IMG/VR virus record: IMGVR_UViG_3300049156_000034
Span: 1 to 26,285 of that record
DNA length: 26,285 nt
Reading direction: 5' to 3' (one strand)
Source of the DNA: a virus
The position numbers and the translations under genes are program-made. The notes under the pieces were generated by a model. That model saw only the letters and a list, made by a program, of their open reading frames with translations. It did not search any database and was not told where the DNA came from. Each line of letters begins with the position of its first letter. The stretch's first letter is position 1. Below are positions 2,838 through 26,285 of the stretch, piece after piece.

Positions 2838-3241
2838 TGGGAACAATACCTCAACAAGACACCTTTTTAGATAAGTTGCATCTAAAGCGTGTGCTAGAGC
2901 GCAGCAATGCTGATCTTGACAAGATTGGTCAAGCGCTGCGTGATGGTGATATGGCTGATCTGCGCAAAATTCTGGCTAAACATTCCAGACAGATACAGAT
3001 GGTTTTGCTTGCCGAGGCTTGCGAGCTGCATGACAGGCAGCAATTAAACTATCTGACTCAGCGAAATTTAGATCGTTACGAGCCAAAAACAAAACATATT
3101 CAGCAGCAGACTCAGGTGCTTGAAGAAGTACACCTGATTGTTTCTGAACTGGAGGCCGTACCAACGGATGAGTTACTCGAGAGAGCCAGAGCAATCTCAG
3201 GACGTAGAGAAACTAGACAGCTTAGAATTATCTCTGATTGA
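2837..3241 (+). CDS. Putative terminase small subunit
   Basis: A 134-residue, largely helical, charged protein encoded directly upstream of TerL and overlapping it. Terminase small subunits recognise the packaging start site and recruit TerL to viral DNA. Position and size fit. The N-terminal half ('LHLKRVLERSNADLDKIGQ', then 'DMADLRKILAKHSRQIQMV') could form a DNA-binding helical bundle. The middle ('KTKHIQQQTQVLEEVHLIV') looks like an oligomerising coiled coil. I see no unmistakable helix-turn-helix signature, so the call rests mainly on context. The ATG overlaps the stop of the upstream gene by one base (TAATG). It could instead be another packaging accessory protein. Confidence 0.45.
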   Translation: MGTIPQQDTFLDKLHLKRVLERSNADLDKIGQALRDGDMADLRKILAKHSRQIQMVLLAEACELHDRQQLNYLTQRNLDRYEPKTKHIQQQTQVLEEVHLIVSELEAVPTDELLERARAISGRRETRQLRIISD

Positions 3242-4811
3242 ACAGGTTCTCAAAGATCGGGACCCCGACCAGTATTACCAATATAGGATCGAGCCATATT
3301 TGGACGATCCTATTTCTTTTTGTAGGGAAGTCCTAAACTTTGAACCTATGGCCGAGCAGATTGAAATGCTCAAGGCTGTTGCAGAGCATAATCATATAAG
3401 CGCCCGCTCCGGTAGGGGGATTGGCAAGACCAGGACGCTAGCTTCTGCAATGTGGTGGTATATGTGTACGCGGCCTCATTGCGTTATCCCCTGTACCGCC
3501 CCCACGGAGAATCAACTGCGAGACGTATTGTGGGCAGAGCTGGCACGGCTGCAACGTAGCATGGACACTTATTTTGCCGATCAATTCCACCTGACGGTGG
3601 ATCGCTTCTTTCATCTTGAGCATCCTAAGACTTGGTATAGTGTTGCGAGGACAGCCAGGAAGGAGAATTCCGAGTCATTTCAGGGATTTCACGAGGAAAA
3701 CATGCTCTTCATCTGTGATGAGGCTAGTGGTATCCCCGATGAGATATACGATGTTATGGAAGGCGCAATGACCGACAAGCGCAATAGCAATAAGGCGATC
3801 CTGGTAGGCAACCCGACTAGGACTGTTGGTTATTTCCATGCGTCTCACCATGAGTTTGCGGATAAACCCTGGAGGAATTTCCATTTTAGTAGTGAAGAAT
3901 CAGAATTGGTCAGCGAGCAATGGTTACAGACTATGGGTGAACGCCCTGGTGGTAAATCCTCCAACTTTTATCGGGTTCATGTAAAAGGTGAATTCCCGAT
4001 TGAGGACGAATCAACCGTGATACCTAGACCATGGATAGACGCAGCAATAGATAGAAAGATTAACTACATTCGACCACTTTCAGACAGACCTATTGATTCA
4101 GTCGGCGTTGATGTGGCTGCGGGTGGTGATTCCAATACCGTGTTCGCTTTCGTCAAGGGCGTTAAGGTACTAGCCCTCGCAGTTTTTGAGAAAGAAGATA
4201 CGATGATCTGTGCAGGCAGGATTGCAGGTATGACTAGGCGTGGACCGGATATGTTGAACTTAAAGTCAACACGGCTGCGACCCATACCTGCAGACCTTAT
4301 CCGAATGGACGTAATCGGAGTTGGCATAGGTGTTTATGACCGCCTGATGGAGCAAGGGATTGATATTAACGGTGTTGACGTGCGTGAGGCTTCATCAGAT
4401 TCCACCTTGTTTATAAATCGCAGGGCAGAGCTGTATTGGAATCTCAGGGATCGCTTTGAGGAAGGCAGCATTAGTATCCCGAATGATAAGCATTTGATTC
4501 GGGAGCTGTCTAATTTGCGCTATGAGCTAGATAGTCGTGGCCGTGTTCAAATCTGGAGCAAACAGCGCATGAAGAAGGAGAACATACCGAGCCCTGATAG
4601 AGCGGAAGCGGTAATGCTGGCCTTTGCTGATTACTATCCAGAGGAAAAGACCAAGAAACCCAAGACCTTTACACAGAAATGGATTGACACGACGAACAAG
4701 CAAGAGACTGAACAAGATCCCTGGCTTGACTACGCCAAAAAGAACCTGAAAGAAGTCGCTGGCGGTGACTTTCTTTACGACGATGATGAATTCGCAGGAT
4801 TCCGATGGTGA
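3168..4811 (+). CDS. terL: Terminase large subunit (ATPase and nuclease)
   Basis: TerL is the motor that pumps DNA into the prohead through the portal and cuts the concatemer. Counting from ATG 3168 (547 residues), the N-terminal ATPase has a Walker A 'SGRGIGKT' (residues 81-88) and a Walker B 'MLFICDEAS' with D184 and E185. The C-terminal RNase H-like nuclease has acidic residues D315 in 'VGVDVAAGGD', D381 in 'IRMDVIGVG' and D477 in 'SPDRAEAV'. All three are in the order expected for TerL, so both activities look intact. The frame extends upstream to a TTG at 3138, but that has no good ribosome site. ATG 3168 has GGAGG at 3151-3155, a long spacing. Either start lies deep inside the small-subunit candidate, so the overlap is 74 bases or more. 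The 3' end overlaps the next gene by 7 bases. Confidence 0.93.
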   Translation: MSYSREPEQSQDVEKLDSLELSLIEQVLKDRDPDQYYQYRIEPYLDDPISFCREVLNFEPMAEQIEMLKAVAEHNHISARSGRGIGKTRTLASAMWWYMCTRPHCVIPCTAPTENQLRDVLWAELARLQRSMDTYFADQFHLTVDRFFHLEHPKTWYSVARTARKENSESFQGFHEENMLFICDEASGIPDEIYDVMEGAMTDKRNSNKAILVGNPTRTVGYFHASHHEFADKPWRNFHFSSEESELVSEQWLQTMGERPGGKSSNFYRVHVKGEFPIEDESTVIPRPWIDAAIDRKINYIRPLSDRPIDSVGVDVAAGGDSNTVFAFVKGVKVLALAVFEKEDTMICAGRIAGMTRRGPDMLNLKSTRLRPIPADLIRMDVIGVGIGVYDRLMEQGIDINGVDVREASSDSTLFINRRAELYWNLRDRFEEGSISIPNDKHLIRELSNLRYELDSRGRVQIWSKQRMKKENIPSPDRAEAVMLAFADYYPEEKTKKPKTFTQKWIDTTNKQETEQDPWLDYAKKNLKEVAGGDFLYDDDEFAGFRW

Positions 4812-5065: not shown

Positions 5066-5535
5066 TGGAATTGCTCAAGGAAATCCAAGAGTTTCATAAG
5101 GTTCAACCAGTACCAACCCAAGAACTCCAAGTAGCTTGTTGTGTCTGCAAGATGTGGATAGGCAATGCTCTAACATCGGAGCTTGATGTGCCGATTAAGG
5201 GTAGCATGTTCTACCATCGGCCCGGAACAGAGTCCCTGGAACTACCCGGCGATGATGCAATGGGTATGGATCTTCTTTGTCCGTTTTCTAAAACCGATGA
5301 TCCGGCTGATTTGCATCTATTTGTGGCGCACCTTCCTTTTCGTGAAATCGACGCTGACACGCTCGATTTATACAGGAGCAATGTCAAGTACCTAATTGAG
5401 CCTAGAGGGGCTCAGATCGAAGAAAATGAGGCTCAGGATGGCATTTGTCCGTGTGGCTGCGGGGGGGAAGTTAAGGAAGGCAAGATTTATGCTGCGCGGG
5501 GGTGTAATCAGAGACATAGGTGGAGGAGAAAGTAA
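5065..5535 (+). CDS. Cysteine-rich phage protein with C-terminal CPCGCG motif
   Basis: A 156-residue protein of unknown function. Eight cysteines are visible. An N-terminal 'VACCVCKMW' group (about residues 23-31) is followed by a lone 'LLCPF' cysteine. The C-terminal 'ICPCGCGGEV' to 'AARGCNQRHRWRRK' stretch resembles zinc-binding tails in many phage proteins, where a 'C.CGC' pair is followed by an aromatic or basic 'GC...H' ending. A metal-binding fold is likely. The very basic last seven residues could contact nucleic acid. It begins on the stop of the membrane-protein gene (TAATG) and ends two bases before the portal ATG, so it belongs to the packaging operon. A role in portal or terminase assembly is possible but not shown. 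Confidence 0.6.
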   Translation: MELLKEIQEFHKVQPVPTQELQVACCVCKMWIGNALTSELDVPIKGSMFYHRPGTESLELPGDDAMGMDLLCPFSKTDDPADLHLFVAHLPFREIDADTLDLYRSNVKYLIEPRGAQIEENEAQDGICPCGCGGEVKEGKIYAARGCNQRHRWRRK

Positions 5536-5537
5536 AA

Positions 5538-7544
5538 ATGGCTACGGCAACTGATACTCAGGGCAAACCGATTATCCGCAATCGTGACGAGATAGAGAAG
5601 CAGCATGTAACTTCATTGCTGCCGAAGGAGGGAGAGAAGAATGTTGGTCATGCTTCCTTCGCAATCTTAGAGGCGGTGATTGAGGACAAAGAGAAAAAGC
5701 GGCTGCCGCAAAAGTGGTACAGGAACTATGAAATGTACCGCAATCATCATTGGAGATCAGGCGCTTTCGCTCCCATTCCTCTTGCTTCCATAAGTCTCGT
5801 ATCAGCTCACGTAGAACGGACGGTGAACCTACTCACCGATAATAATCCTACATTCGATGTTATCGGGGAGGATGAGGAAAAGGCTTCGAGTTTGCAGAAG
5901 ATGGCTCGTTATTGGTGGAACGAAACGGAGCAGCAAGACATTTTTGGTGATTCAGTCAAGATGGCCGAGATCAATGGTTCCGCAATCGAGAAGGTTATCT
6001 TCAATCCCGCCCTAAACAATGGCCTGGGTGAAGTAGAAACCATTAACATTGATCCTCACAATTTCGGATTCTGGCCGCTGAATGAAAAAAATCCAAGAAA
6101 ATGGGAGGCAGCTCTCCATTACTTTACTATGCCGCTTAATCAGGCCCGGAGACGATGGCCGAAGAAAGCAGATCAAATAAAAGCCGACGAGGAATGGAAA
6201 GAGCAGCTCGGAGAGAAAAGGCGTGAAATTGTAGGCGGCTCTGCAAGGCCAATACCGAAAGCAGGCATGGGTGATTTCGCTCGTAGTCGTGCCTTTATTC
6301 ATGGCAATCCAGCGCTCTTGAGTGTCATGGGCCGTGGTGATGAAGTATTGATTGTGGAACTTTGGGTTAAAGATTATTCGATGGTTCAGGAAGTCACTAA
6401 ACCTATGGTGCAAGAGCTTGATGTAGATTCAGGCATACTGGCAGAGGTAGAGCCCGAAGAAAAACAAGTCAGACCTAAATATCCCGGCTATATCCGAGTA
6501 GTAACTACCTGCAATGGTGGTGATTTAGTGCTTTCAGACAGACCTAACCCGAGCATCAATCACAGTATGCCATTAGAGCAAATATCACAGACGTTTCTAT
6601 TTAATAGATTCCCCTTCACCCTTACACCTTCTGTCAAAGATCCTGTTACACCGTGGGGGTACTCTAGCATTGAGCAACTGGAACAGCTCAACATCGAGAT
6701 AGACAAATGTATTAGCCAGCTCAATTACATGAAAGATCGTGTCTCTCGTTCACCGCTTATCAATCCAAAAGATACCATGGTGGACAATGCTGATTTCACC
6801 AACGCCGCCAGGATCGTCAGACCGAAAAACAGTATCGTTGCCAAATCTATCAGGTACATGGATAGCCCGCCTGTCCAGACTGATATTCATAATATCCTCA
6901 CTATCTATCGAGAGCTGTTTGATAAAGTCGCCGGGACTTTCGATCTCACAGATCCTCAGATAATGAAAGGCCGCCTCGCCTTTAAGTCCATTGCTGCCAT
7001 TTTAGAGAATATGCACACTCTAATCAGGGGCAAAATTAGAACCTATGGCCGGATGATTAGAGATCGAGGCAGAATGTATATCTCGCACGTTCAAAACTGG
7101 TACACAGAAGAGCGCTTCTTTTTCTTAGAGGAAGATGGATTGCCGATACAGGGCTCTTTGGTTGGGCCTGAATCAATTATGCCTCACCATTTCCAGGTGG
7201 TTGCAGGATCTACCATGCCTACCTCTCGCCTGCAGAGACGTGAGGAGGCTATGGAATTATTTAAGATGGAAGCCATTGGAGTGCGAGAGTTGCTGGAAGC
7301 GCTTGAATGGCCTGACAGGGCTAACATAGCAACTAAGATGGAAATGGGTGTTGTCGGGCCGCTACTGGAGCGCATGCAAGCTCTAGGTGTTGAGCAACAG
7401 GTATTACAGATTGTTCAGGAAGTATCGCAAATGGATGAGTCAACATATAACGCCTTGGTGCAGCAAGTTAAAGAGCTGCAGGGTGAACAGATCCAAGAAC
7501 AAGGCCAAATAGAAGGAGGTGGAGGAAACCTTGCCGCTGTATAG
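5538..7544 (+). CDS. Portal protein (P22-like head-to-tail connector)
   Basis: The portal forms the dodecameric ring at one capsid vertex through which DNA enters and leaves. The 668-residue protein has the length and layout of podovirus portals. The N-terminal part has 'KWYRNYEMYRNHHWRS' and a long wing region. The central segment 'SRSPLINPKDTMVDNADF' precedes a 'VRPKNSIVAKSIRYM' strand. The clip/stem region 'FDLTDPQIMKGRLAFKSIAA' (about residues 468-487) corresponds to the '...G.....SG.AI' motif before the stem helices in portal families. The C-terminus is helical and Gln/Glu-rich, compatible with a barrel. A longer frame opens with GTG at 5520, but ATG 5538 has GGAGGAGAAAG just upstream and is preferred. 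It overlaps the next gene. Confidence 0.87.
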   Translation: MATATDTQGKPIIRNRDEIEKQHVTSLLPKEGEKNVGHASFAILEAVIEDKEKKRLPQKWYRNYEMYRNHHWRSGAFAPIPLASISLVSAHVERTVNLLTDNNPTFDVIGEDEEKASSLQKMARYWWNETEQQDIFGDSVKMAEINGSAIEKVIFNPALNNGLGEVETINIDPHNFGFWPLNEKNPRKWEAALHYFTMPLNQARRRWPKKADQIKADEEWKEQLGEKRREIVGGSARPIPKAGMGDFARSRAFIHGNPALLSVMGRGDEVLIVELWVKDYSMVQEVTKPMVQELDVDSGILAEVEPEEKQVRPKYPGYIRVVTTCNGGDLVLSDRPNPSINHSMPLEQISQTFLFNRFPFTLTPSVKDPVTPWGYSSIEQLEQLNIEIDKCISQLNYMKDRVSRSPLINPKDTMVDNADFTNAARIVRPKNSIVAKSIRYMDSPPVQTDIHNILTIYRELFDKVAGTFDLTDPQIMKGRLAFKSIAAILENMHTLIRGKIRTYGRMIRDRGRMYISHVQNWYTEERFFFLEEDGLPIQGSLVGPESIMPHHFQVVAGSTMPTSRLQRREEAMELFKMEAIGVRELLEALEWPDRANIATKMEMGVVGPLLERMQALGVEQQVLQIVQEVSQMDESTYNALVQQVKELQGEQIQEQGQIEGGGGNLAAV

Positions 7545-8006: not shown

Positions 8007-8008
8007 TA

Positions 8009-9082: not shown

Positions 9083-9087
9083 TAACA

Positions 9088-10683: not shown

Positions 10684-11631
10684 ATGGCGCTTACGAGAAG
10701 TGAGCTGGAATCTATCACTCGAGATCATTGGGTAACTGATAATGGGAAAGCGTTTGACAACTATTTCACGTCAAACTACCTGATCTTTCGGGTTATGAAA
10801 AAACCGAAATATCGTCCCGCTGGTGGCGTTCAGATCAAAGTGCCGTTGACCTATGACCGCCTGACAGGTGGATCATTCGATGGTACGGATCAGTTCGACG
10901 TTGCCCGCAAGGATATTATCAATTCTGCGCTGTTCGATTGGCGGCACTACTATGTCAACGTCACAATCGTTTGGACCGAGGAGTTGGAGAATGCAGGTCC
11001 CGAGGAAGAGGTTGATATGGTGCTGACTAAGCTCGACAATGCGCAGGAAACTATCCGGTGGGATCTCGGTGACGGACTCTACAGCGATGGTTCAGGGAAT
11101 GCAAGCAAGGATTTGGATGGCTTGGAGGCCCTGTTTGACCCTGTAACTTCAACCCCTTATGGCGCAATAGCAAACGACGACATGCCAACATGGAGCGCCG
11201 GAGTAGATACTACTGCGGAGCCGTTGACGAGTGCTGTTCTTCGTGCCATGAGGACCGCTGCAAAGATCGGTGATGGCTCGAATGACAAGCCGAAGCTAAT
11301 TGTGACGACTGATGATCTGCTGGATAGTTGGTTGAACCAACTGCAAACTCAGCAACGTTTTCAGTCACCACAGGCAGCCAAAGCTGGTTTCGACGGTGTG
11401 TTTATGATCGACCAAGCAGAGATATTCAGCGACGGTAAATGCCCCGCTGGTAATTGCTATGCTTTGAATGATCGGCATTGGGGATTCGCGGTACATCGAA
11501 GCGGTATGTTTGTCAGGACCGCATGGAAGGTCCCCACGAATCAGGCCGTGAAAAGCATGCAGATTCTCTGGAAGGGCAACATGATCTGCACCCGGAGAAA
11601 CAGCCATTACAAGCACAGCAACTTGACCTAA
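10684..11631 (+). CDS. Major capsid protein
   Basis: The 315-residue protein forms the capsid shell. It follows the scaffold and is preceded by a strong AGGAGG site at ATG 10684. The N-terminus is a helical arm ('MALTRSELESITRDHWVTDN'), then 'IFRVMKKPKYRPAGGVQIKV' leads into the core. Later segments fit the HK97-like coat of podovirus-type phages: 'TKLDNAQETIRWDLGDGLYS' (spine-like helix region), 'PKLIVTTDDLLDSWLNQLQ', 'FDGVFMIDQAEIFSD' and a final 'NCYALNDRHWGFAVHRSGMF'. These are typical of the related marine and environmental phage coat family. No cleavable delta domain or protease gene is evident, consistent with a separate scaffold. A G/C hairpin follows the stop codon. Confidence 0.85.
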   Translation: MALTRSELESITRDHWVTDNGKAFDNYFTSNYLIFRVMKKPKYRPAGGVQIKVPLTYDRLTGGSFDGTDQFDVARKDIINSALFDWRHYYVNVTIVWTEELENAGPEEEVDMVLTKLDNAQETIRWDLGDGLYSDGSGNASKDLDGLEALFDPVTSTPYGAIANDDMPTWSAGVDTTAEPLTSAVLRAMRTAAKIGDGSNDKPKLIVTTDDLLDSWLNQLQTQQRFQSPQAAKAGFDGVFMIDQAEIFSDGKCPAGNCYALNDRHWGFAVHRSGMFVRTAWKVPTNQAVKSMQILWKGNMICTRRNSHYKHSNLT

Positions 11632-12844: not shown

Positions 12845-14089
12845 ATGGGAGCGAATCTATTTACCTTGAGAAAATTTGTTCGGCAAGAGATCGACGATCC
12901 GGCTCCCCTGAGAAAGCCTGGGCCAACGATCAGCTTCCAGCATGACGGTGGCTTTAATCAGACTACGAGCTTTCAGGATTCGTCTGAGGATTTTGTGACA
13001 CTAGGGATCGTCGTGGGTGATGTGATTTTCAACCTCACAGATGGTGGTTCTCTGGCTACTATCAGGGCTATTACCAGTAACATCGGTACGAATGATGTGC
13101 TGGAAGTAGATTCAATAGATGGCGGGAATCAGAATGAGTACAACCCGAATGATATTTGCTATCTCTATGATCGCCATGCGCAGAAGGGGCTAGACGGTAC
13201 TCGATTCATAAACTCCGAAATCCTCGATGCAATCAATCAAGCGCAGAAACAGGTAGCGCGGAAATTTGGTGGTGTTCAAAAGACTGACTATCATCAGGAT
13301 ATTAAGGTTCAGACCAAGATCCCGATTGATAATCTAGTTTCAACCTTGCTTGTGGAGGAAACCGTCACAGGTGCAAACAATGGATATACTGCCGTCATTG
13401 AATATCAGGCAGAGGATTTCTTTGTCGTTGAAGATTTCAGGGATGCTACTGGTACGTTAGACGATACAGCTCTCTTTGAGGACAATGAAGTAATTACAGG
13501 GAATACAAGCGGGGCTACGTGTCAGATAAACAGCCCTGATACCAGCGGCGCGGTCCCGCCCGCCCTGCAGGGATATAGTGTCAACAATTTTAATGTCGGA
13601 CAGAATTTACCTACCGATCTCAAATCCCTTGTAGCTGCCTACTATTTAGACCCAAGCAATCAGCGCTATGGCCTGGGTAAGCAATATATTGAGGAGCATT
13701 TTCGCTATCCTCGATCTACTGGAGAGCCTATTACTGCGGCTCCTTGGCAAGATAGTAATCGTATATGGCTCTGGCCCAACAGATCACCAGGAGGGGTAAA
13801 TAATATCCACCTAATCTATTGGGCGTGGCCTGCTGATCTTGCGGCTGATACAGATGAAACAGACCTAGATGTTCTTTACGAGCGGCTCTTAATTTTGTTG
13901 TCTGCAAGGATTCTGGCTGGACACATGAGAGACGAGGAAATGATTTCTCGAATCATGCCTGAGTTGCAAGAGGAACAATTCGATGTAATGACAACGAAAG
14001 ACGATGAGCCAAGACATTTCCGGCAAGAAATTCCTTGGGATCTTTATGAGGATGGTGATTACTTCTCGGGCCGAGGTAGGTATATATGA
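12845..14089 (+). CDS. Head-tail adaptor with two inserted beta modules
   Basis: The 414-residue protein lies between head and tail-hub genes, where podoviruses encode adaptor or head-completion proteins that sit below the portal. The helical adaptor core is visible as 'NLFTLRKFVRQEIDDPAP' at the N-terminus, 'NSEILDAINQAQKQVARKFG' in the middle and a C-terminal helical part ending 'PWDLYEDGDYFSGRGRYI'. Two stretches look inserted: residues about 35-110 ('TSFQDSSEDFVTLGIVVGDV' to 'CYLYD') and about 168-235, with 'NEVITGNTSGATCQINS'. Both match short beta modules common in phage tail and adsorption proteins. This makes the protein about twice the usual adaptor length. The start has GGAGG at 12836-12840 region. 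Its TGA overlaps the next ATG (ATGA). Adaptor identity is by position and layout. Confidence 0.6.
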   Translation: MGANLFTLRKFVRQEIDDPAPLRKPGPTISFQHDGGFNQTTSFQDSSEDFVTLGIVVGDVIFNLTDGGSLATIRAITSNIGTNDVLEVDSIDGGNQNEYNPNDICYLYDRHAQKGLDGTRFINSEILDAINQAQKQVARKFGGVQKTDYHQDIKVQTKIPIDNLVSTLLVEETVTGANNGYTAVIEYQAEDFFVVEDFRDATGTLDDTALFEDNEVITGNTSGATCQINSPDTSGAVPPALQGYSVNNFNVGQNLPTDLKSLVAAYYLDPSNQRYGLGKQYIEEHFRYPRSTGEPITAAPWQDSNRIWLWPNRSPGGVNNIHLIYWAWPADLAADTDETDLDVLYERLLILLSARILAGHMRDEEMISRIMPELQEEQFDVMTTKDDEPRHFRQEIPWDLYEDGDYFSGRGRYI

Positions 14090-16503
14090 TAAAGCGCACA
14101 GACAGTCAATTCAAGAACAAATTCGGCAAATTGGTTAAGGGTATAAGTTCCTTTCTCTTGGAGAATGAACAGCTCTCAGACATTCTCAACATGCTTCCCG
14201 GCTATGAGTGGCGGCAGCGCAAAGGCCAGAGTGAATTAACCACGACTGAAATAGCTGCCAATCTTGAATTCAAGAGTATGTTTCACTTCTCGCAGCTTAA
14301 TCAGCCTGGAGATTACATTCTGGCCCATGTGTCTGATCCTGTAAATGGTGATCGCATTATGAGAGCTTCTGCTCTCCCGCCTGCAACTGGCGTTACTTGG
14401 ATTGACGAATACCAGCTTACTACCGGGGCTAATCCAGCGCAGTTTTGTCAAGTTGGCGATGCTGTACTCATTGCCGACGACAATGAGTTTCTTATCTGGC
14501 GTGGCGAATCTCAATACGCTACTGGTGTTTGGGTCTATGATTCGTCAGCTACTCAATACATTGACTATTGGGATGAAATGACAGATGGGCGCACGACGAC
14601 CATTCTAAATTTAAGCAGCTTTCCCACGGCAGATCGCGTTCACATAATGGCGGATAGCCCAATCAATAGAATTATCGTGACCGTGGGGAATACCAATAGT
14701 GCTGCAGCCGTTCTTTCAGTTTTCTCCTATCAATCAGGGGGATACACCGCAGTAGCAGGGCTCGTTGATGGTACGAGCGTTACCGGGCGCTCTCTCTCCG
14801 TCTCTGGCGAGATTACCTTTAACCTAACAGGAAATGAAGAACAGACTATCATTGATGGGCAGGGCGGTTTTGTTGTCTATCTAACCTGGAACAACGTGCT
14901 TGATGCAAGCTGTGATCTTACTGAATTGAGGGTAGAAACCGAGTGGGGTCCAGTTCAAGACGTATGGGATGGAGATAGGATAGATCCTTCTGGAGCTTAT
15001 GTAACTGCTGACGATGTGACCTTTGAAGATTATTGGGCCAAGGTTTTGAATACCGCAGTTTCAGACTACCTCGATGCAGGCGGTCTTGTAACGGCGGGAT
15101 ATGTCTATGTCGGTTTTGACAGACAGGTAAATGCCATTGATTTCTGGCCCGATGTTGATAACGCACAGACAAATAATTCAAGCGTTACCTCCGTCCAGTA
15201 TTGGTCGAATACTGGAGCCTGGACAGCGGTAACAGGCTTGGTAGATACCACGGAGGCGAGTAATTCCTCATGGACACAAAAGGGAAGTATCGGCTGGACC
15301 CAAGTAGATCAAGATGTAGAGAAAACCGTGATAGTAGCTGGCGATATTAACCCCTGGTACTGGTATCGAATCACATGGGATGCAAATTTCTCTGCAGAGG
15401 CAAGAATTTATCGAATCACAGGTGTTGGATCTCCCCAAAGAATTGATTCTTCCTACGGAGTGCAAGCCTGGAAGCGCAGAGCTTGGCAGATTGCTCCGCT
15501 TAGAAGAGCGAATCAGTTGCGTTTCTCGGCTGATGGTTTGCCGAGTACCTGGAATGGGATTGATTCTGGCTATGTAGCCTTCGGTGAAAGGCCCGCCCGA
15601 GCTGCGTTGCCCTTTTTTAATGAGCTGGTGATCTGGTGTGACCGTGAGATGTGGATGTTACAGGGCGACCAGCCAGCTAATTATGGTCGCATGAGATTGA
15701 GTGCCAGGGTAGGCATTGATGCTCCTCATTCTGCAATAGCCATAGAGAGCGGGGTAATTGACCAGCGAAACATACGTCGTATTACTCTGGCATGGTTCTT
15801 TCAGGCCATTTGGTTTTTTGATGGAATCAGGTGGTGGATAATTTCCTCTCCAGACATAGATTCATTTTTTGATCCCGAGCATGAAGATTATATCAATCCG
15901 GATTTCAATGACAGAACTTACGGTGAGTATGACATTGAAACTGAATGCGCTTATTGGGTGGTTTACAGCGGTGCTAATCAGACTACACCTAATAAAGTCC
16001 TGGTCATGCACATTCCAACATTACAATACTCCATTTATCGGTACGCCACTCCGCTCTCGAGCATTCTTTCGGCTTTTAATAAGCGTTTCTATTTCATGGG
16101 CGGCGGGTACGATTCAGGGAAACATTACCTTTTGAATGATACCGACCAGGACGTTGATGCTACCGGGCAAGCGGTAGCCATTGATGCCTTTATGATTACA
16201 AAAGATGCGTGGGCTGCATACGATCAGGGATTGAAGCAGAGAGTTTTCAGCCTCGTTGTTGCGTCCCAGGATCAAGGTATGGTTGAGCTAGATGAATATC
16301 CAGATGGTTCTAAAACTCCGCAAGCGGCTGGCTCGATGAAACAGACCGCACTCGGCAAGACCTTAAAAGATGTGCAATGGACGCTCAAAGAATACCCAGG
16401 CCAGCTTACTACCAAGTTTAGAATCCGTCACCGCTCACTCAACGAAGGCTTTATCCCCTATGGATACAGCACGACTTGGGATCAGGATAGGAGCGAAGAG
16501 TAG
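14086..16503 (+). CDS. Tail hub / DNA stabilisation protein (P22 gp10-like)
   Basis: The 805-residue protein is probably the tail hub that plugs the portal channel and anchors tail spikes or fibres, as P22 gp10 does. The C-terminal half has hub-like blade signatures, including 'GVQAWKRRAWQIAPLRRANQ', 'LRFSADGLPSTWN', 'FFNELVIWCDREMWMLQGDQ' and 'AWFFQAIWFFDGIRWWIIS'. These are typical of this family, which carries a beta-propeller-like core. The N-terminal half contains two similar modules (about 193-285 and 348-445), each with 'TAVAGLVDGT' or 'TAVTGLVDTT' followed by a 'WYWYRITW'-like or 'FVVYLTWN' strand. This suggests an internal duplication of a carbohydrate-binding-like beta domain. It starts on the ATGA overlap with the adaptor and its TAG overlaps the next GTG. 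Confidence 0.75.
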   Translation: MIKRTDSQFKNKFGKLVKGISSFLLENEQLSDILNMLPGYEWRQRKGQSELTTTEIAANLEFKSMFHFSQLNQPGDYILAHVSDPVNGDRIMRASALPPATGVTWIDEYQLTTGANPAQFCQVGDAVLIADDNEFLIWRGESQYATGVWVYDSSATQYIDYWDEMTDGRTTTILNLSSFPTADRVHIMADSPINRIIVTVGNTNSAAAVLSVFSYQSGGYTAVAGLVDGTSVTGRSLSVSGEITFNLTGNEEQTIIDGQGGFVVYLTWNNVLDASCDLTELRVETEWGPVQDVWDGDRIDPSGAYVTADDVTFEDYWAKVLNTAVSDYLDAGGLVTAGYVYVGFDRQVNAIDFWPDVDNAQTNNSSVTSVQYWSNTGAWTAVTGLVDTTEASNSSWTQKGSIGWTQVDQDVEKTVIVAGDINPWYWYRITWDANFSAEARIYRITGVGSPQRIDSSYGVQAWKRRAWQIAPLRRANQLRFSADGLPSTWNGIDSGYVAFGERPARAALPFFNELVIWCDREMWMLQGDQPANYGRMRLSARVGIDAPHSAIAIESGVIDQRNIRRITLAWFFQAIWFFDGIRWWIISSPDIDSFFDPEHEDYINPDFNDRTYGEYDIETECAYWVVYSGANQTTPNKVLVMHIPTLQYSIYRYATPLSSILSAFNKRFYFMGGGYDSGKHYLLNDTDQDVDATGQAVAIDAFMITKDAWAAYDQGLKQRVFSLVVASQDQGMVELDEYPDGSKTPQAAGSMKQTALGKTLKDVQWTLKEYPGQLTTKFRIRHRSLNEGFIPYGYSTTWDQDRSEE

Positions 16504-18118: not shown

Positions 18119-18120
18119 CA

Positions 18121-18801
18121 ATGGCTGTATTACCTCAAGGTGATTATTCGACACAAGGGATAGTTGGTAGGATGCAAGCTGCTTTAGGCCCAACTTTTCG
18201 TCAAACTTCTCAGGCTGTCCGACAAGCTGCGGGCGGCGCAGCTCGACGAAGGGGTATATTCGGCGCTGCCGACATTGCATCACAGGCTACTCAACCTCTT
18301 GGCGCTCAGTTAGGTAGGGCTGCGGCATCGGCTGGAGTAGCTGGTGAAAAGTTGGGAGCGCAGTTTGAGCAGCAGGCAAGGGATTTGGAATTTCAGCGAG
18401 AACGATTATCGCAGCAAAAGGGTTTGGAGGAAGCTCGTCTTGCAGAAATAATGGCCGGAAGGCAACAGCAAGGCCAGCTCGCTATGTTTCCACAAACAGG
18501 TTTCACTCAGGAAATGTTGCAGAGCTTGGGCTACCCAGGCACTCCGCAAGATCCTTTCGGGCCTCAGATGGGTTTGAACCAATTCCAAAGGAGCCTTGAG
18601 GGTATGCAACGCCGTGACCAGCTCCCAGGTGTACCATTTCAACAAAGGGGATTTGGCGGACCAGGCGGCGGCATGAATGCTCAACAGAGTTTGATGTTAT
18701 CAAGAATGTATCCTGGTTCTTCCCAAGCATTCAGGATGCAGCAAGCACAGAACTTGGGGCTCATGGGTGGTCCAATTCAGCCAGGACAATTCCAGAGGTA
18801 A
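18121..18801 (+). CDS. Gln/Gly-rich candidate internal virion protein
   Basis: A 226-residue protein with AAGGGGGA upstream of ATG 18121. The N-terminal half is Ala/Gly/Gln-rich and helical, with 'TFRQTSQAVRQAAGGAARRR', 'LGAQLGRAAASAGVAGEKL' and a charged coiled coil ('EQQARDLEFQRERLSQQKG'). The second half is Gln/Pro/Gly/Met-rich and disordered, including 'FQQRGFGGPGGGMNAQQS'. Ala/Gly-rich, coiled-coil proteins between the tail hub and a giant virion protein are typical of ejection proteins in podoviruses, which leave the capsid with the DNA. No enzyme motif is visible. The assignment is by composition and position. Confidence 0.55.
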   Translation: MAVLPQGDYSTQGIVGRMQAALGPTFRQTSQAVRQAAGGAARRRGIFGAADIASQATQPLGAQLGRAAASAGVAGEKLGAQFEQQARDLEFQRERLSQQKGLEEARLAEIMAGRQQQGQLAMFPQTGFTQEMLQSLGYPGTPQDPFGPQMGLNQFQRSLEGMQRRDQLPGVPFQQRGFGGPGGGMNAQQSLMLSRMYPGSSQAFRMQQAQNLGLMGGPIQPGQFQR

Positions 18802-18814
18802 AGGGGGTGAGAAA

Positions 18815-20026
18815 ATGGCCGTTCAGAGGGTTATAGGTGCAGTAGAAGAACGGATGAGATCAGTAAGGCGACTCGAGAAAGAAGAGGATCGGAGGAGAAA
18901 GAAAGCCAGCGATAGGTCGTCTTTAATAAAAGCAGAAATAAACCGCCGAGGTCGGGGAGCTACCAAAAGAGCCTACGAGTTTGAAAAGCAACGAGAAAAG
19001 GACAGGTTAGTAGAGGATATTATACAAAGCATCGTTGCAGGTGAACCAACGGGTAGGTTTGCAGCAACGCAACCCGAGATCAGAAACTTTGCTATCTCTG
19101 AGGAGGAACAGGTGGCGCGGCCCCCAGGCGCTCCGGGCCGTACTCGTGGTGAGGAACTAGCCTACATCAAACCGTCACATCTTAAAAGATTGAGAGAGAA
19201 AGGTGTCAGGCGGGTAAGCATTGAAGGTGGGGGAATCTCACCGGACGCAAAAACGCTGAATACTTTAAGGCTCCTGCAGGATGGAAAAATACCAGTTGAC
19301 GAGGGCGATCCCAATGAGCTTAGAGGACAACTTGGCAGATTAGGACAGCCCCCACCGCTATCTACTGACCAAGCGCAAGAGATAATGCAAACTGGCAGAA
19401 TGCCAGAGCAAGCTCAAGCAGGTGGTCAGTCTATGAGAGCGCCCATATTTACAGGGGGACAGCAGGAAGATTTGCGAGGCTTATACGGTCAGTTTGAACC
19501 AACACCTCTTGAACAACCTGAGACTGATCTGACTCAATGGGCTCAACAGTATGTGGGTGAACCACAGGAAGCGACACCCACCGCAAATATACAAGCATTG
19601 TATCAACAGATGCAAGCAGAGGGTGGGGCCAAACAAAAACCAGCAAAGCTCATTACGGTCTTTAAGAAAGATGACAAGGCAGTAGGTCCCCGCACAATGA
19701 GAGTGCCTGATGTTGCAGGCCATCCTCCCCCTGGCTATGAATTCAAAGAGGAGAAAAAAGGCGGGACTATGAGTTTTACGGACGCAGAGGAAGAGCTTAA
19801 AAGGAGAAGTAGAGGTGGTGGTGGTGGAGGCATCGGTGGAGGCAGAGGAGCCCCGCTTGCTGAAGGTGATGAACGGCTAACACCTCCAGGCCCAGGTGCA
19901 ACAGAGGAAGAATGGGCAAGGTACTATTGGGAGCTGGCGAGAACGAGACTAAAGGGAGCATCACCATCGCAGATCGCAGCCGAAGCACGTAGGCTAGCGA
20001 CCCAAGGTGGAATGCAAATAGGATAG
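18815..20026 (+). CDS. Low-complexity candidate ejection protein
   Basis: A 403-residue protein. The start chosen is ATG 18815, which follows AAAGGGGGTGAG; a longer frame from 18767 lies inside the preceding gene and is less likely. The N-terminus is an intensely charged helix ('RMRSVRRLEKEEDRRRKKAS'). The middle is Gln/Pro/Gly-rich with 'YIKPSHLKRLREKGVRRVSI' as the only compact block. A Gly run ('RSRGGGGGGIGGGRG') precedes a C-terminal helix that includes 'EEEWARYYWELARTRLKG'. It has the composition of an internal, unfolding-prone virion protein. It ends six bases before the giant protein begins, so the two may be made and packaged together. Confidence 0.52.
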   Translation: MAVQRVIGAVEERMRSVRRLEKEEDRRRKKASDRSSLIKAEINRRGRGATKRAYEFEKQREKDRLVEDIIQSIVAGEPTGRFAATQPEIRNFAISEEEQVARPPGAPGRTRGEELAYIKPSHLKRLREKGVRRVSIEGGGISPDAKTLNTLRLLQDGKIPVDEGDPNELRGQLGRLGQPPPLSTDQAQEIMQTGRMPEQAQAGGQSMRAPIFTGGQQEDLRGLYGQFEPTPLEQPETDLTQWAQQYVGEPQEATPTANIQALYQQMQAEGGAKQKPAKLITVFKKDDKAVGPRTMRVPDVAGHPPPGYEFKEEKKGGTMSFTDAEEELKRRSRGGGGGGIGGGRGAPLAEGDERLTPPGPGATEEEWARYYWELARTRLKGASPSQIAAEARRLATQGGMQIG

Positions 20027-20032
20027 GGAACT

Positions 20033-23000
20033 ATGCCCTTAGAAGATTTCTTTAGCCAATTCGAGCGCGACGAAACTACTGCGCAGCAGAAAGTAGCAGG
20101 CCGCTCAATGCCTGATCTTATTGAGCCCCCTGTCCAGGCAGGTACATTAGTGCTAAAGCGGCCTACTCCACCTGTGCGAACAGGTACTCAGTTGCGCAAC
20201 CCTAACGTCGAGCAACAATTTCAAATTCTGGAGGCAGAGGAACAGGAGCGCCAAGATCCTACTGGTGCTGCCTTCCTCGAACAAATGTTAATTAGACGAC
20301 CCATAGGTGGACTCATTCAAACCTATAAGGGTTTGATGCAGTTGCAGAGAGTTGTAAGCAAGCCCTTTGAAAAGTATGATATTAACGCTCAATTACGGAC
20401 CAAAGTTGCAGACAGAGCAGTAGAGCATGCGGATAGATGGCTACAGCATCCGTGGATACAAATGCCGCAAGCATGGCGTGAGCCGATTGAATTTGCAGAT
20501 ATGCAGGAGGACGCTCACTTATCTTTTCAAGAACGAATAAACAAAGGCGAGCATCATTATTACGCCCAAGCAGCGGCCTGGAAAGATTCTCTTTCTAAAA
20601 ATGCTCCGCGTCTCCTTGCCGTAACGAGTGAGGCATCAACATCAATGGCGATTGCCTATGGTGCAGGCTTTCTTACAGGTCAATACTGGCTCGGCCCTTT
20701 AATCTTAGGCATGGCCGAATCTGGCCCGCTAGCTGAGAGGGCTTTAGAGGCTGGAGTTGATCCTCATACGGCAGTAGGGATAGGTGTCGTTTCAACTGCC
20801 GTGATAGCTGCCCTGGAAATGTTACCAGTAGAAACGCTGCTAAGATATGGTGGAAAGCGCAGAATCATAGCAATGATTAGGCAGGGCGGCGCTGAAATGA
20901 CCCAGGAATTATTGCAGAATCTTTACAGTAATACGGTTGAGCATTACGGATGGGATGAAACGCAAGAGATATGGGAAGGTGCTTTTGAAAGCGGAGTTTC
21001 ATCATTCTTACTCGGGTCAGGAGCGGGTTTACTAGCTCCTGAGTATCAAGAACAAGCGAGAAAATTTGAAGAGTCAAAAGAGCCCCCCCCAATAGAGTTA
21101 ACTGAGGCATTTGAAGAGCCAGCGATTGAACTTGATGAGCCAGCATTTCCACCTCACCCATTCAAGTTAGTTGACGATCCCGGTCTATACATAAGAGCAA
21201 GAAAAGATTCGCCTGTCTTTCTTTCATTTCGTGGCGCTACTATGAACTTGGAGAAGGCTAGTAAAGAAGTAGGCAGGCCGCATGAACTCGTTCAAATTAC
21301 GAATGACAAAAATGAACCTATTGGTTGGGGTCTATGGTCTGCACCTGCAACCGTTCCTGAAGCTGGAGACGTACAGGGCGTAGAGCCTACACCGGAAGAA
21401 GAAGCAGCTCCCCCCACCATAGATCAAGAGATAGAGGATATAAGTGATGAAGAGATAGATGATCTCTTTGAACCAACAACCCCCGAAGGTGAAGCCCCCG
21501 AAGTCCCTCCATTATCTACACCAACTATCTCTGTCAAGTTAAGCGAAGTGCTTAAACAGACAGAGGAAAGTGTCATTAATGAATTCAACCTCGCATCATC
21601 GCCTGACCTTGATATAAATACGCCTGTTTCACCAGAAGGTGAGCTACATACTACTAGGCCGGATGGCACTATGGTCACAGTAGAGAATGCTACTGATGCA
21701 GAGCTGGAGGAAGTTGTCAGGCGCAGGAGACAGCAAGTTTTACAACTCTGGCCGCAATTAGGCAAGGGCTTGGGCGATGTTCCCATGTTGGTAAAAAGCC
21801 GCGTCGAATCTCTGATCCGAGCTGAGAATGAGATTGTCAGGCGCAGGGATGAAATCGAAGCTCCCGAGCCCACTCCCGATGTTGATTATGGCACACCTGC
21901 AGACCTGAATGTAGGCATGCTGACAGAAATGTTTCTGCAAAGGCTGAGAGAAGGCCAAACCGATCTTAACAAAGTTAAGTTACAGCAAATCGTGGCAGCA
22001 CAGCTAGGCATTAGCCGGGGCGATCTCTTAGCAAGCGAAGGCTTTCTACACAAACCGATTGAAGAGGCGTTTGAATACGCCATTGTCAAGCGGGCCCGCG
22101 AGATTATCACCGAGCTAGGACACCCGACCATCCCTGCCCCCGCTATCTATGAACAGCTCAAGGCTCTCTATGAAACACAGCCACGATTGGCAACACGAAC
22201 AGGGATTAGCATAGAGACTCAGCAATACTCTACGCCTGTTCATTTAGCTTATCTAATGCAGGTAATGACCGAGACTGATGGACAAACTACCGTCTATGAA
22301 CCCACCGCTGGTACAGGCATGCTCCTTACCACCACAACTCCCGCAAGAGTGCTGGCTAATGAGTTAGTGCCTACCAGGGCAGACATTCTCAGGGACCAGG
22401 GCTTTGTGGTTAGTCAGGAAGATGCTCGTGGCCGTATAATAAATTCACCGTCCGAAGGTAGAATGGACGTGATGCTTGCTAATCCTCCCTTTGGAAGTCA
22501 GCTAGCCGTAACTGTTGAAGATGTGAGGATAATGAAACTAGAGCATCAGATCGTTATGGATGCTCTGTTGGCTATGAAAGATGATGGCAAGGCTGCTTTT
22601 CTGATCGGAGAACATACAATAAAGGAAACGCAAACCGAGCCCACACGAGCAAGAAAGAACTTTCTCAACTGGCTTTACAGCAATTATAATGTCATTGCGA
22701 ATATAGAGATCCCTGGTAGTGAGTACGCTAGACAGGGTACAACTTTTAATGTAACATTACACGTAGTCGATGGGCGTTTGGCCGAAGTGAATCCCAACCT
22801 CGGTTGGTGGACAGCTTTCGATCAAATGTTAAGGGTCCAGAGCATTGATGAGCTTGCGCCCATTGCAGAGGAGATTGGCCGTGGCAAAGAAACAACAGGA
22901 AGAGAAATTCTGGCTCCCCCAGGAGTTGAAGAAGTACCCCCTAGCGGTGAAGTTGTTGGGCCTCCTGTTGCCCCCGAGCCAGAAGGTGTCGAAGAAGAAT

Positions 23001-26000
23001 TACCTCCAGCTCCACCGCCAGAAGTTCCAGAGCCTACTCCAGAAGCAGAGCCAGGTGTCGGACCCCCGCCTACTGTTGGAGAACCTACTCCAGAACCCAT
23101 ACCAGGACCCCTACCCCCTGGAGTCGAGCCCGAACCTGTGGGACCTGCAGGAGAACCTGGAGGAGAACCACCCGGAGTTGTTCCGCCCGCCGTTCCTGAT
23201 GAACTTGTACCTGAACCGGAAGTTGAGCCTGAAAGACCTGAAAGAGAGCCTGGACCTCCAGAGCCAGAGCCCACCCCCGAGCCCGAACCAGTCGAAGTCG
23301 GCGCTCCAGAGATTGCACCTGTCGGAGTACCTGGAGCTGAGTCTCCCATAGAACAAGACATTAGGACTGTCACCGATGAAGATTTGGATGATATGTTCGG
23401 TGAACCTGATGGCCGCCCCGAAATCCCCCTGTCCCCCGAACAAGAAGATGTACCCCCTGATCGTCCTGATGATGTAAATGAAACACTCAAGGGTAATGAT
23501 CTGAATCAAAGGTGGGATGAATACTTTGAGCAAGTTGCTACCTTTTGGACAGGTCGCCCCGCTCCCGAGCCAATAATCACCGAAGAGATCAAGCCTCTTG
23601 GCGCTGGTGAAAGTCTGCTTGATGCCATTGAAGAAACTGGCAAGGCCGGAAAAGAGTTAGCCAAGGGCCTGAATACTTTATTCGGCGGCAAAGACCCGAG
23701 CCGTGTCAGCATGGGCTTTACTTTTGATGAGGAGACTTACGCCCAGGCGAAGCCTCATTTTGATGCAGCCTTGAAACATGCCTTACAAGCAGGGCTGAGT
23801 CTAAGGCAGGTAGTCGATCAACTCATTGCGAAATATGGCGATGTGATTAAGCCCTATCTGCGCAGGTGGATTGAAGAAGGACGTGAGCGCAAGAAGATCC
23901 AAAAGATCCATGAAGATGAATATCAAGTAACCTACATACCAAAATCACGCGGGCAGATCGTTGACGAAACCATGATGCCACGCATGCAGCGCCAAGCCGT
24001 GAACCAAGCCCTCGATAATCTCGAGGAAAGAATCGGTGATATTGATGAATTTGTAGCCAGGGAAATGCGCTTTCCCTCGGTTGAGGAATTATGGAATCAT
24101 CCTGATGGTAGGTCGCGTTTCTCTGCAGATCAGATAGATGCGCTCGCTCTTGCCATTGACAATTTGAAGAACGGCAAGGCAATGATCGTTGGTGATGCTA
24201 CTGGAGTAGGCAAAGGCCGAGTAGCTGCAGCGATTATGGATTGGGCTCGCTGGCATGGACACATTCCGATTTTCTTTACTGAGAAAGCGACTCTCTTTAC
24301 AGATATTTATCGAGATATGATTGATATTGGCCGTGACTTTAATCCCTTTATCATGGGTGCAAGAGATAAGGGAACGATTGTTGATAAGGAAGGCAAGCTA
24401 ATATATCAACCCTTACCCGATACAAAGCGCAGAGCTTTCTTACAGCGCCTTGCAGGGGCAGGAACCCAAGCAGAAGCCCAAGAGATGTTGAAGGATGCTG
24501 GTTACGATATGATCGTGACCACGTATTCACAGATTCAAGCACCTGGGAACCTACAGCAACAAGTAATCCAAAGACTTTCTCCAGGCAATTATATGATATT
24601 GGATGAAGCGCATAATGCCGCTGGTGATTCTAATACCGGGGCGTACATGCGAGAAACCCTTGATAGAGTTGAGGGTGTAATTTATCTATCAGCTACCTTT
24701 GCCAAACGTCCTGATACGCTTTCGCTCTACAGAAAAACCGACATTAGCAAAGCGAACATGACTCACGAGGAGCTGGTGCATGCCTTAACCGCTGGTGGTA
24801 CTCCATTACAGGAGATTTTATCAACTGCATGGACTAAACAAGGTCAATACATCAGGCGTGAGAAATCATTTCGCGGTATAAGCATGCCTGTTAAATTCGA
24901 CACGAAGAATAGAGAACGAGACGAAGAGCGTTCCGATACCATGACGTTCCATTTGAGAGGCATGGTTCGGTTTGACAATAAGATGGCTGCCTTATTTGCT
25001 CATTGGAATGGCTTGTTAAAAACAGCATTACGCAGAGGTAAGGATGATTGGCTGGACTATATTACTGATCCCGATCTGTTGCATTTCATAAATGTAACTG
25101 GCATTGATCCGAGTTGGGATATAAGAAGTGGGAGATTTGTTGCCTCGAGTGTCAGCAAGACAACCTTTGCGGCCAAAGTACATAACGCTGTCAGGCAATT
25201 ACTGTTTTCAATCAATACTGAATTCTCAATAGAGGAAACCAAAGAAGCTCTTGCAGAGGGCAGGAAACCATTCATTGCTGTCAGTAATACCATGGGAACA
25301 TTCTTCAAGGAAATGGTGAACCTGGGTGAGATTAGTGAAGGCGATCCATTTAAGTTTTCTTACAATGATTCCCTGCGTATCCACCTCAATAGAATGCTAA
25401 ACATCAGAGTGACAGATACCAGGGGCAATAGTGACGTTATTGATTTTGACATAGATGCCTTGCCGAGTGACTTTGAACGTGACTTTAACGGCATGCAGGA
25501 GAGAATCGCAGAATCATTTACTGACTTACCTTTGAGTCCGATTGATATGATGCGAGAAGAGCTAGCAAAGGTTGATACGGTTGATCTAAACACAGGCAAA
25601 ACACGCAAGGTAGTTGTAGATGAGATAACCGATAGGGATTTCCGTGTTGATACAACTGATCCTCTGTTCCCGAAGCTCAAGTTTAGGCGCGGAACTGAAA
25701 AGTCACGTAGGAATCAGATAATCCGAGACTACAATAACGGTAAGATTGATGTGATAATAGTTAATGCTGCTGGAGCTGCTGGTTTATCAGCTCATGCTTC
25801 ATCTGAGTTTAAGGATCAACGAATCCGTAAATTCGTTGGCGCACAGGCTGACCTTGATGTTGCCGTTGAAGTACAGAAGATGGGTCGTATTCATCGAAAG
25901 GGTCAAGTTGTAACCCCTGAGTATGTAACTTTGGCGGCAGACCTACCCGCAAACAATAGACCAATTTCAATTCTGATGCGCAAGCTCAAATCTCTCAGCG

Positions 26001-26285
26001 CTAATACCTCTGCCAATACAGATTCAGTTTTAATGACTAAAGAAATCCCCGATATGATGAACAAATATGGGGATAGGGTAGTGCAAAAGTATCTGGCTGA
26101 TAATCCTGAAATGGCTTCCCTGCTAGGTACAATGGTTAGCCCCGACCAGCTTGACACGGCCCCACCTGCCGGGTTGATGGCGAAGATCACAGGAAGGGTA
26201 GCGTTACTCGCGGTTGCTCAACAAAAGACTTTCTATGAAGAAGTTGAATCTGAATACAACAATCTGATTCAGGATCTCAGGGATG
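20033..26285 (+). CDS. Giant DarB-like protein: N6-adenine methyltransferase fused to a Strawberry-notch helicase, 3' end cut by the window
   Basis: One uninterrupted frame of 2084 codons reaches the window edge. The N-terminus (about 1-340) has hydrophobic stretches near 203-228, 243-266 and 323-338. A methyltransferase follows: 'QQYSTP' (730-735), SAM-binding 'EPTAGTGML' (756-764) and catalytic 'NPPFG' (817-821), the signature of N6-adenine enzymes. A Pro/Glu-rich linker spans about 961-1107. The SF2 helicase has 'GDATGVGKGR' (1387-1396), 'DEAH' (1524-1527), 'SATFAKRPD' (from 1553), 'VNAAGAAGLS' (1910-1919) and 'QKMGRIHRKGQ' (1948-1958); the third and fifth are typical of Strawberry-notch helicases. 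Phage P1 DarB has the same pairing, is packaged, and protects injected DNA from type I restriction. The same role is inferred here. All key motifs are intact. The ribosome site is weak (AGGGAACT). Confidence 0.88.
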   Translation, partial: MPLEDFFSQFERDETTAQQKVAGRSMPDLIEPPVQAGTLVLKRPTPPVRTGTQLRNPNVEQQFQILEAEEQERQDPTGAAFLEQMLIRRPIGGLIQTYKGLMQLQRVVSKPFEKYDINAQLRTKVADRAVEHADRWLQHPWIQMPQAWREPIEFADMQEDAHLSFQERINKGEHHYYAQAAAWKDSLSKNAPRLLAVTSEASTSMAIAYGAGFLTGQYWLGPLILGMAESGPLAERALEAGVDPHTAVGIGVVSTAVIAALEMLPVETLLRYGGKRRIIAMIRQGGAEMTQELLQNLYSNTVEHYGWDETQEIWEGAFESGVSSFLLGSGAGLLAPEYQEQARKFEESKEPPPIELTEAFEEPAIELDEPAFPPHPFKLVDDPGLYIRARKDSPVFLSFRGATMNLEKASKEVGRPHELVQITNDKNEPIGWGLWSAPATVPEAGDVQGVEPTPEEEAAPPTIDQEIEDISDEEIDDLFEPTTPEGEAPEVPPLSTPTISVKLSEVLKQTEESVINEFNLASSPDLDINTPVSPEGELHTTRPDGTMVTVENATDAELEEVVRRRRQQVLQLWPQLGKGLGDVPMLVKSRVESLIRAENEIVRRRDEIEAPEPTPDVDYGTPADLNVGMLTEMFLQRLREGQTDLNKVKLQQIVAAQLGISRGDLLASEGFLHKPIEEAFEYAIVKRAREIITELGHPTIPAPAIYEQLKALYETQPRLATRTGISIETQQYSTPVHLAYLMQVMTETDGQTTVYEPTAGTGMLLTTTTPARVLANELVPTRADILRDQGFVVSQEDARGRIINSPSEGRMDVMLANPPFGSQLAVTVEDVRIMKLEHQIVMDALLAMKDDGKAAFLIGEHTIKETQTEPTRARKNFLNWLYSNYNVIANIEIPGSEYARQGTTFNVTLHVVDGRLAEVNPNLGWWTAFDQMLRVQSIDELAPIAEEIGRGKETTGREILAPPGVEEVPPSGEVVGPPVAPEPEGVEEELPPAPPPEVPEPTPEAEPGVGPPPTVGEPTPEPIPGPLPPGVEPEPVGPAGEPGGEPPGVVPPAVPDELVPEPEVEPERPEREPGPPEPEPTPEPEPVEVGAPEIAPVGVPGAESPIEQDIRTVTDEDLDDMFGEPDGRPEIPLSPEQEDVPPDRPDDVNETLKGNDLNQRWDEYFEQVATFWTGRPAPEPIITEEIKPLGAGESLLDAIEETGKAGKELAKGLNTLFGGKDPSRVSMGFTFDEETYAQAKPHFDAALKHALQAGLSLRQVVDQLIAKYGDVIKPYLRRWIEEGRERKKIQKIHEDEYQVTYIPKSRGQIVDETMMPRMQRQAVNQALDNLEERIGDIDEFVAREMRFPSVEELWNHPDGRSRFSADQIDALALAIDNLKNGKAMIVGDATGVGKGRVAAAIMDWARWHGHIPIFFTEKATLFTDIYRDMIDIGRDFNPFIMGARDKGTIVDKEGKLIYQPLPDTKRRAFLQRLAGAGTQAEAQEMLKDAGYDMIVTTYSQIQAPGNLQQQVIQRLSPGNYMILDEAHNAAGDSNTGAYMRETLDRVEGVIYLSATFAKRPDTLSLYRKTDISKANMTHEELVHALTAGGTPLQEILSTAWTKQGQYIRREKSFRGISMPVKFDTKNRERDEERSDTMTFHLRGMVRFDNKMAALFAHWNGLLKTALRRGKDDWLDYITDPDLLHFINVTGIDPSWDIRSGRFVASSVSKTTFAAKVHNAVRQLLFSINTEFSIEETKEALAEGRKPFIAVSNTMGTFFKEMVNLGEISEGDPFKFSYNDSLRIHLNRMLNIRVTDTRGNSDVIDFDIDALPSDFERDFNGMQERIAESFTDLPLSPIDMMREELAKVDTVDLNTGKTRKVVVDEITDRDFRVDTTDPLFPKLKFRRGTEKSRRNQIIRDYNNGKIDVIIVNAAGAAGLSAHASSEFKDQRIRKFVGAQADLDVAVEVQKMGRIHRKGQVVTPEYVTLAADLPANNRPISILMRKLKSLSANTSANTDSVLMTKEIPDMMNKYGDRVVQKYLADNPEMASLLGTMVSPDQLDTAPPAGLMAKITGRVALLAVAQQKTFYEEVESEYNNLIQDLRD
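22915..23355 (+). repeat. Pro/Glu/Gly-rich low-complexity linker
   Basis: About 147 codons made of imperfect short repeats built from PEP, EPEP, PGP and GEP elements. It lies inside the giant gene, between its methyltransferase and helicase. At DNA level the repeats centre on GARCCW and CCYGAR hexamers. It probably forms an extended spacer. It also creates long false frames on the other strand. Confidence 0.8.

Follow-up and report, generated by a model that had tools for sequence, protein, structure and literature searches.

A giant methylase-Strawberry-notch helicase protein at the end of a phage virion gene cassette

Introduction

Why would a phage end its virion gene cassette with a giant gene for a DNA methyltransferase fused to a helicase? 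The question is raised by the IMG/VR virus contig IMGVR_UViG_3300049156_000034, whose whole length of 26,285 b (positions 1 to 26,285 of the record, hereafter the window) was analyzed here. Judged by its motifs and profile matches, the last gene of the window holds, in a single frame, an intact N6-adenine methyltransferase and, downstream of it, a complete Strawberry-notch (Sno) helicase. An original prediction, made from the sequence alone, took the product for an injected anti-restriction protein. By analogy with known phages, we consider it probable (roughly 0.6) that this polyvalent methylase-helicase-dyad protein is made late, packaged in the virion and then ejected together with the genome, and that it shields the incoming DNA.

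Results

A methylase and a Sno helicase in one frame

The giant gene starts with an ATG located 6 nt after the previous stop codon and continues, free of stops, for 2,084 codons up to the end of the record, as had been predicted. Because the frame is still open at the end of the contig, the gene was truncated by assembly and its 3′ end is missing. The chance of such an open frame in random sequence of the same composition is ~1e-50, and the remaining five frames contain 62-198 stops over the same interval. The nearest relative, G006, is 84% identical to the window giant and carries the N-terminus and the methylase before its contig breaks off in the linker region. Comparison with G006 over 981 shared codons gave a ratio of nonsynonymous to synonymous substitution rates (dN/dS) of ~0.22 (dN 0.099, dS 0.446), with a value of 0.13 across the methylase part; the giant gene is under purifying selection. 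Chimeric assembly of the fusion is unlikely, because independent contigs show the same joins in one frame, either N-terminus and methylase (G006) or methylase and Sno.

Both sets of catalytic motifs claimed in the original prediction were found, and the profile search that it had proposed, against DarB, Sno and N6-methyltransferase families, recovered both domains. In the methylase, the motifs are QYSTP (residues 731-735), YEPTAGTGML (755-764) and ANPPFG (816-821, with NPPF at 817-820). Pfam N6_Mtase taken alone scored 17.2 bits, under its cut-off of 20.4. A profile of the aligned proteins matched HsdM of the type I restriction-modification enzyme EcoR124II (4.4e-7), a DarB profile also matched (see below), and so did PHROG DNA methyltransferases; the HsdM and PHROG matches secure the identity of the methylase. 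Both Sno families were above their curated Pfam cut-offs (Helicase_C_4, 65.5 bits; AAA_34, 52.3 bits), and ResIII and DEAD profiles matched as well. The superfamily 2 (SF2) motif set of the helicase is complete, with GDATGVGKGR (1387-1396), LDEAHN (1523-1528) and YLSATFA (1551-1557) in the first half and IDVIIVNAAGAAGLSAHA (1905-1922) and VQKMGRIHRKGQ (1947-1958) in the second. An alignment of six homologues showed that the motifs of both domains were invariant or almost so. Methylase and motor are the sole domains of the polyvalent set visible in the truncated gene, and the Sno C-terminal winged helix would fall past the contig end.

Homologous proteins

Methylase-Sno proteins are numerous in viral contigs, phages and genome contigs, mostly with both domains in one frame, and some are split across two genes. 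They form a compact class (about 1,550-2,000 aa) and a giant class (about 2,600-7,177 aa); compact dyads also occur where no giant virion-linked protein is involved, as on an Acinetobacter plasmid. Many viral contigs (L004-L021, L026, L029) carry a free-standing Sno helicase open reading frame (ORF) of ~1,025 aa, with no fused methylase detected. In a quick tree of the window and 53 other loci, the order of methylase and then motor was identical in all 53. The window grouped loosely with giants on contigs binned as Deltaproteobacteria, Thermodesulfobacteriota and Nitrospira, a position that is uncertain given its long branch and the type of tree.

The nearest complete relatives are 3,800-4,650 aa long and go on into MuF_C, RadC or LPD38. 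Among complete relatives, L108 contains ddrB-ParB, Sno, RadC and LPD38, with the methylase detected by profile; L075 contains methylase, Sno and MuF_C; and L028 has InPase and LPD39, with ddrB-ParB also seen among other relatives. In addition, G007, G008 and G009 have ~350 further conserved residues in common beyond the point where the window ends. Since the nearest complete relatives continue in this way, more domains (RadC, MuF_C or LPD38-like) probably follow in the missing C-terminal part, in line with what had been anticipated.

The N-terminal region

The long extra N-terminal region noted in the original prediction is present. A charged and Pro-rich start is followed by a Gly/Ala-rich hydrophobic stretch (about 190-345), probably helical, with a single transmembrane-like peak around residue 245-252. 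The sole database match of this region is phrog_10691, a 3,925-position profile of unknown function, which covers residues 202-356 (E 2.4e-6). The hydrophobic N-terminus of the methylase-Sno relative G009 (L028:4055-5554) matched the virion RNA polymerase PHROG phrog_2206 (E 1.7e-8), which hints at a delivery module that this giant has in common with N4-type virion RNA polymerases.

The giants of three sister contigs (G001, G002 and G003) have a ~58-aa domain in common at residues 400-650, with copies at E 1e-20 or better, and hhalign aligned a stretch of the window protein with it (38.7%, E 3e-4). A first iterative search placed the window domain at E 1e-12 or better, but a near-identical G006 copy had entered the profile. 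With stricter inclusion and decoys, and a profile untrained on their own copies, the values dropped to E 0.04 for G006 and 1.3 for the window, so both copies are given here as borderline. Apart from this domain, an N-terminal module common to the window and sister giants was rejected, as hhalign scores were not clearly above shuffled controls.

Exchange of the giant gene among sister phages

The sister contigs match the window cassette gene by gene, with identity dropping toward the 3′ end. Between the window and G001/G002/G003, identity was 81-83% for the capsid protein, 53-83% for g18, 33-76% for g21 and 25-31% for g22, and the giant had no detectable similarity. Thus, the whole giant gene is replaced among sister phages while the capsid and gene order are kept, and g22 diverges together with it. 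The slot is occupied by a 2,030-aa protein in G001 and a 3,134-aa protein in G002, both without a Pfam or PHROG match, and in G005 (63% capsid identity) by a 2,988-aa protein (L063:1984-10950) with radical-SAM, DUF7178 and LPD38 domains. For a protein that is apparently injected, such an enzyme is unusual. A search for the dyad elsewhere in the sister contigs, which may be incomplete, gave no match.

The presence of unrelated 2,000-3,100-aa proteins in the slot of sister phages argues that the dyad is an exchangeable accessory payload and not a replication enzyme, an idea that fits its absence from the searched sister contigs. Tentatively, the cassette end may be a payload slot, such that a conserved particle delivers whichever giant sits there and the giant and fast-diverging g22 are exchanged between close relatives; we give this slightly less than an even chance. 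Under such an arrangement, the small shared domain near residues 400-600 and g22 would be candidates for an address label and an adaptor. Payload replacement among close relatives is the point that specialists would want to follow: with a nearly constant particle and a swapped giant payload, the sister set would allow one to ask by what means a particle chooses, threads and delivers a protein of >2,000 residues, and against what in the host each payload is directed.

Other giant genes were seen in the sister contigs. A second one lies upstream of the cassette, outside the window (L064:2387-13426, G001 about 14249-25366 and G002 about 32446-42978); its products (3,680, 3,706 and 3,511 aa) look like a huge repetitive fibre or adhesin, with an 80-94% conserved N-terminus and numerous repeats of ~156 aa. 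In addition, G002 has a second slot-type giant of 3,066 aa at the contig start (L066:232-9429), with 60% identity over 2,589 aa to the 3,134-aa giant at the opposite contig end. A circular or permuted genome would place these two giants in tandem.

The virion cassette

The giant is the last gene of a virion cassette, as originally proposed, with terminase, portal and capsid protein recognized upstream (Table 1). Relatives of the capsid protein are those of Myxococcus phage Mx8 (99.2%) and the archaeal virus MetMV, and a relative of the portal was detected in MetMV only. MetMV, a predicted Methanosarcina virus, encodes, close to where its late genes end, a 3,002-aa LPD38 protein (L133:25686-34694), which suggests that polyvalent giants may extend to archaeal viruses. 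Between the portal and capsid genes of the window, positions 7961-9696 are strongly skewed in composition (AT skew 0.46 and 0.36; GC skew as high as 0.25) and contain two fast-evolving ORFs, possibly scaffold or decoration genes.

Table 1. Features of the giant gene and of the virion cassette in the window
Feature	Position	Strand	Evidence
Giant polyvalent protein gene, 2,084 codons, 3′ end missing	20033..26284	+	Frame, contig end, dN/dS
N-terminal region, residues 1-371; candidate packaging/ejection module	20033..21145	+	phrog_10691, transmembrane-like peak
Possible copy of ~58-aa domain of sister-phage slot giants, residues 372-425, borderline	21146..21307	+	Profile searches, hhalign
Gamma-class N6-adenine DNA methyltransferase with helical N-terminal cap, residues 630-950	21920..22882	+	STP, EPTAGTGML, NPPFG; profiles
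Pro/Glu/Gly-rich linker, residues 960-1160 (29% Pro, 19% Glu)	22910..23512	+	Composition
Sno SF2 helicase/translocase, residues 1294-2083 (AAA_34 and Helicase_C_4)	23912..26281	+	Pfam, motifs, alignment
Terminase large subunit	3138..4811	+	Sequence matches
Portal protein	5520..7544	+	phrog_156; MetMV relative
Major capsid protein, related to that of podophage Mx8	10684..11631	+	Relatives in Mx8 and MetMV
g18, 805-aa conserved virion-cassette protein, candidate tail protein	14086..16503	+	Relative precedes dyad giant in L076
g21, 226-aa Gln/Ala-rich conserved protein, candidate ejection protein	18121..18801	+	Position, size
g22, 419-aa, candidate ejection protein or adaptor	18767..20026	+	Directly upstream of giant, 6-nt gap

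Two ejection proteins had been predicted in front of the giant. Both genes (g21 and g22) exist and are candidates by position and size; comparison of the window tail and ejection genes with the ejection and tail proteins of P22 and Mx8 detected no homology, the capsid protein alone being related. No meaningful hit came from PDB searches with the profiles of g18, g17 and the portal, and the AlphaFold2 model of g18 was poor (predicted local distance difference test score, pLDDT, 46). As no homologue of known morphology was detected for g18 and the candidate ejection genes, a podovirus-type virion is only plausible, on the basis of the Mx8-related capsid protein and a layout like that of JC1 and P22. 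In many dyad-bearing loci, the giant likewise follows two smaller proteins, the first of about 130-300 aa and the second of about 270-580 aa, and a distant contig, L076 (26-28% identity in g18), has the same layout of g18, small ORFs and dyad giant. In P22, genes 7, 20 and 16 (229, 471 and 609 aa) occupy the corresponding place, with no sequence homology detected.

Discussion

In the mechanism that we favor, the giant would be expressed late, alongside the virion proteins, travel in the particle and be ejected with the genome, its N-terminal ~370 residues and the two small upstream proteins aiding packaging and membrane passage. Once in the cell, the Sno motor would track along the duplex DNA as it enters, with the methylase fused to it marking adenines, or the complex would simply occupy the DNA. 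Restriction enzymes that attack unmodified incoming DNA would be blocked in cis, as with P1 DarB, and further effector domains (RadC, MuF_C or LPD38-like) probably reside in the missing C-terminal part. We favor this reading because of the Sno Pfam matches, the kept catalytic motifs, the HsdM and DarB methylase profile matches and the dN/dS of 0.22. It also draws on the polyvalent complete relatives (L108, L075, L028), the recurring order of two small proteins and a giant, the L076 layout and the phrog_2206 match of G009, as well as on the packaging of P1 DarB (PMC9024508) and the presence of the JC1 giant in virions (PMC9144972). Packaging, ejection and anti-restriction, claimed jointly by analogy with P1 DarB and JC1, seem rather probable.

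Several observations weigh against this reading. The AlphaFold2 model of the N-terminal region was unusable (pLDDT 37.5), and the region had no significant similarity to known ejection modules except for the PHROG of unknown function. In the methylase-helicase dyads described by Iyer et al. 2017, an LPD36 domain with a GXG[GAS] motif 'nearly always' comes before the methylase (PMC5512222); a simple motif test did not find this motif in the ~110-130 residues preceding the methylase in any of the six aligned proteins, and the window protein has its ~370-aa N-terminal region with the hydrophobic stretch instead. No counterparts of the DarB partners DarA, Hdf, Ulx and DdrB were identified here. 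Finally, P1 DarB had been expected to have the same pairing, which holds for the methylase, homologous by profile, but not for the motor: DarB matches N6_Mtase, SNF2-rel_dom and Helicase_C, and neither Sno family.

It is possible, although unlikely, that the late-made protein forms no part of the virion and instead remains in the cell that made it, methylating progeny DNA before packaging. Methylation of replicated DNA would likewise protect the next infection, and the compact dyads, such as that of the Acinetobacter plasmid, exist apart from virion-linked giants. However, both here and in many relatives the gene ends a structural operon after candidate ejection genes, the MuF_C, LPD38 and LPD39 domains of relatives are typical of proteins thought to be injected, and the JC1 counterpart sits in virions (PMC9144972). 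Still less probable is a polyvalent effector with a target other than restriction, its methylase and motor working, for example, on host DNA or drawing viral DNA into the cell. Polyvalent proteins do combine mixed activities (PMC5512222), relatives add RadC, InPase or MuF_C, and a DNA translocase that arrives together with the genome could help to draw it in; yet DarB, the sole functionally tested relative, acts in anti-restriction. A replication or recombination enzyme for phage DNA metabolism, located behind virion genes by chance, would suit the SF2 motor and its ResIII and DEAD matches but is very improbable, because its neighbours within the window are virion genes and the sister contigs (possibly incomplete), despite 81-83% identical capsid proteins, have no detected copy and carry unrelated giants in its place.

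Comparison with known systems

The dyad was described by Iyer et al. 2017, with DarB as archetype; injection and methylation or protection of incoming DNA were proposed, and Sno versions were noted in a few instances (PMC5512222). This was the only report of Sno-methylase proteins in phages found in our literature search. Like these dyads, the window protein joins a gamma-class N6 methylase, which carries a TP motif and NPPF, to a Sno-type SF2 module on its C-terminal side; it also resembles them in the LPD38, LPD39, MuF_C and ddrB-ParB domains of its relatives and in its late-gene/virion context.

P1 DarB shares a remote methylase homologue and the order of methylase, then motor. In hhalign, the methylases alone aligned (94.6% probability, E 6.9e-8, 203 columns), and BLAST detected no similarity between the two proteins. 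DarB differs in its SNF2 motor and in having NVPF in place of NPPF; it is 2,255 aa long and has its methylase close to the N-terminus. P1 itself is a myophage, and packaging of DarB uses its N-terminal 30 residues (PMC9024508). Orthology with DarB is not supported for the motor.

Similar in layout, judging from published descriptions, are giants of podoviruses. In JC1 (Bcep22-like), the DarB-like gp69 (4,515 aa) is the product of the last virion gene and follows proteins of 196 and 510 aa, and mass spectrometry of virions identified 51 unique peptides from it (PMC9144972); its motor match is of HepA type according to the same paper. Similar giants occur in Serratia podophage Parlo (3,764 aa), for which an N-terminal transglycosylase was reported, and in Atu_ph08. 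Bacteroides phage BS-TP4 gp3, annotated as a hypothetical protein, contains a methylase-Sno dyad (32-35% identity) and a C-terminal LPD38 and adjoins the portal gene; at 5,391 aa, it is far longer and adds InPase and ddrB-ParB. A giant methylase-helicase protein that ends a podovirus virion module is therefore already known, and the window adds another of Sno type, which brings Sno motors and an uncultured phage group into the range of the virion-linked methylase-translocase giants.

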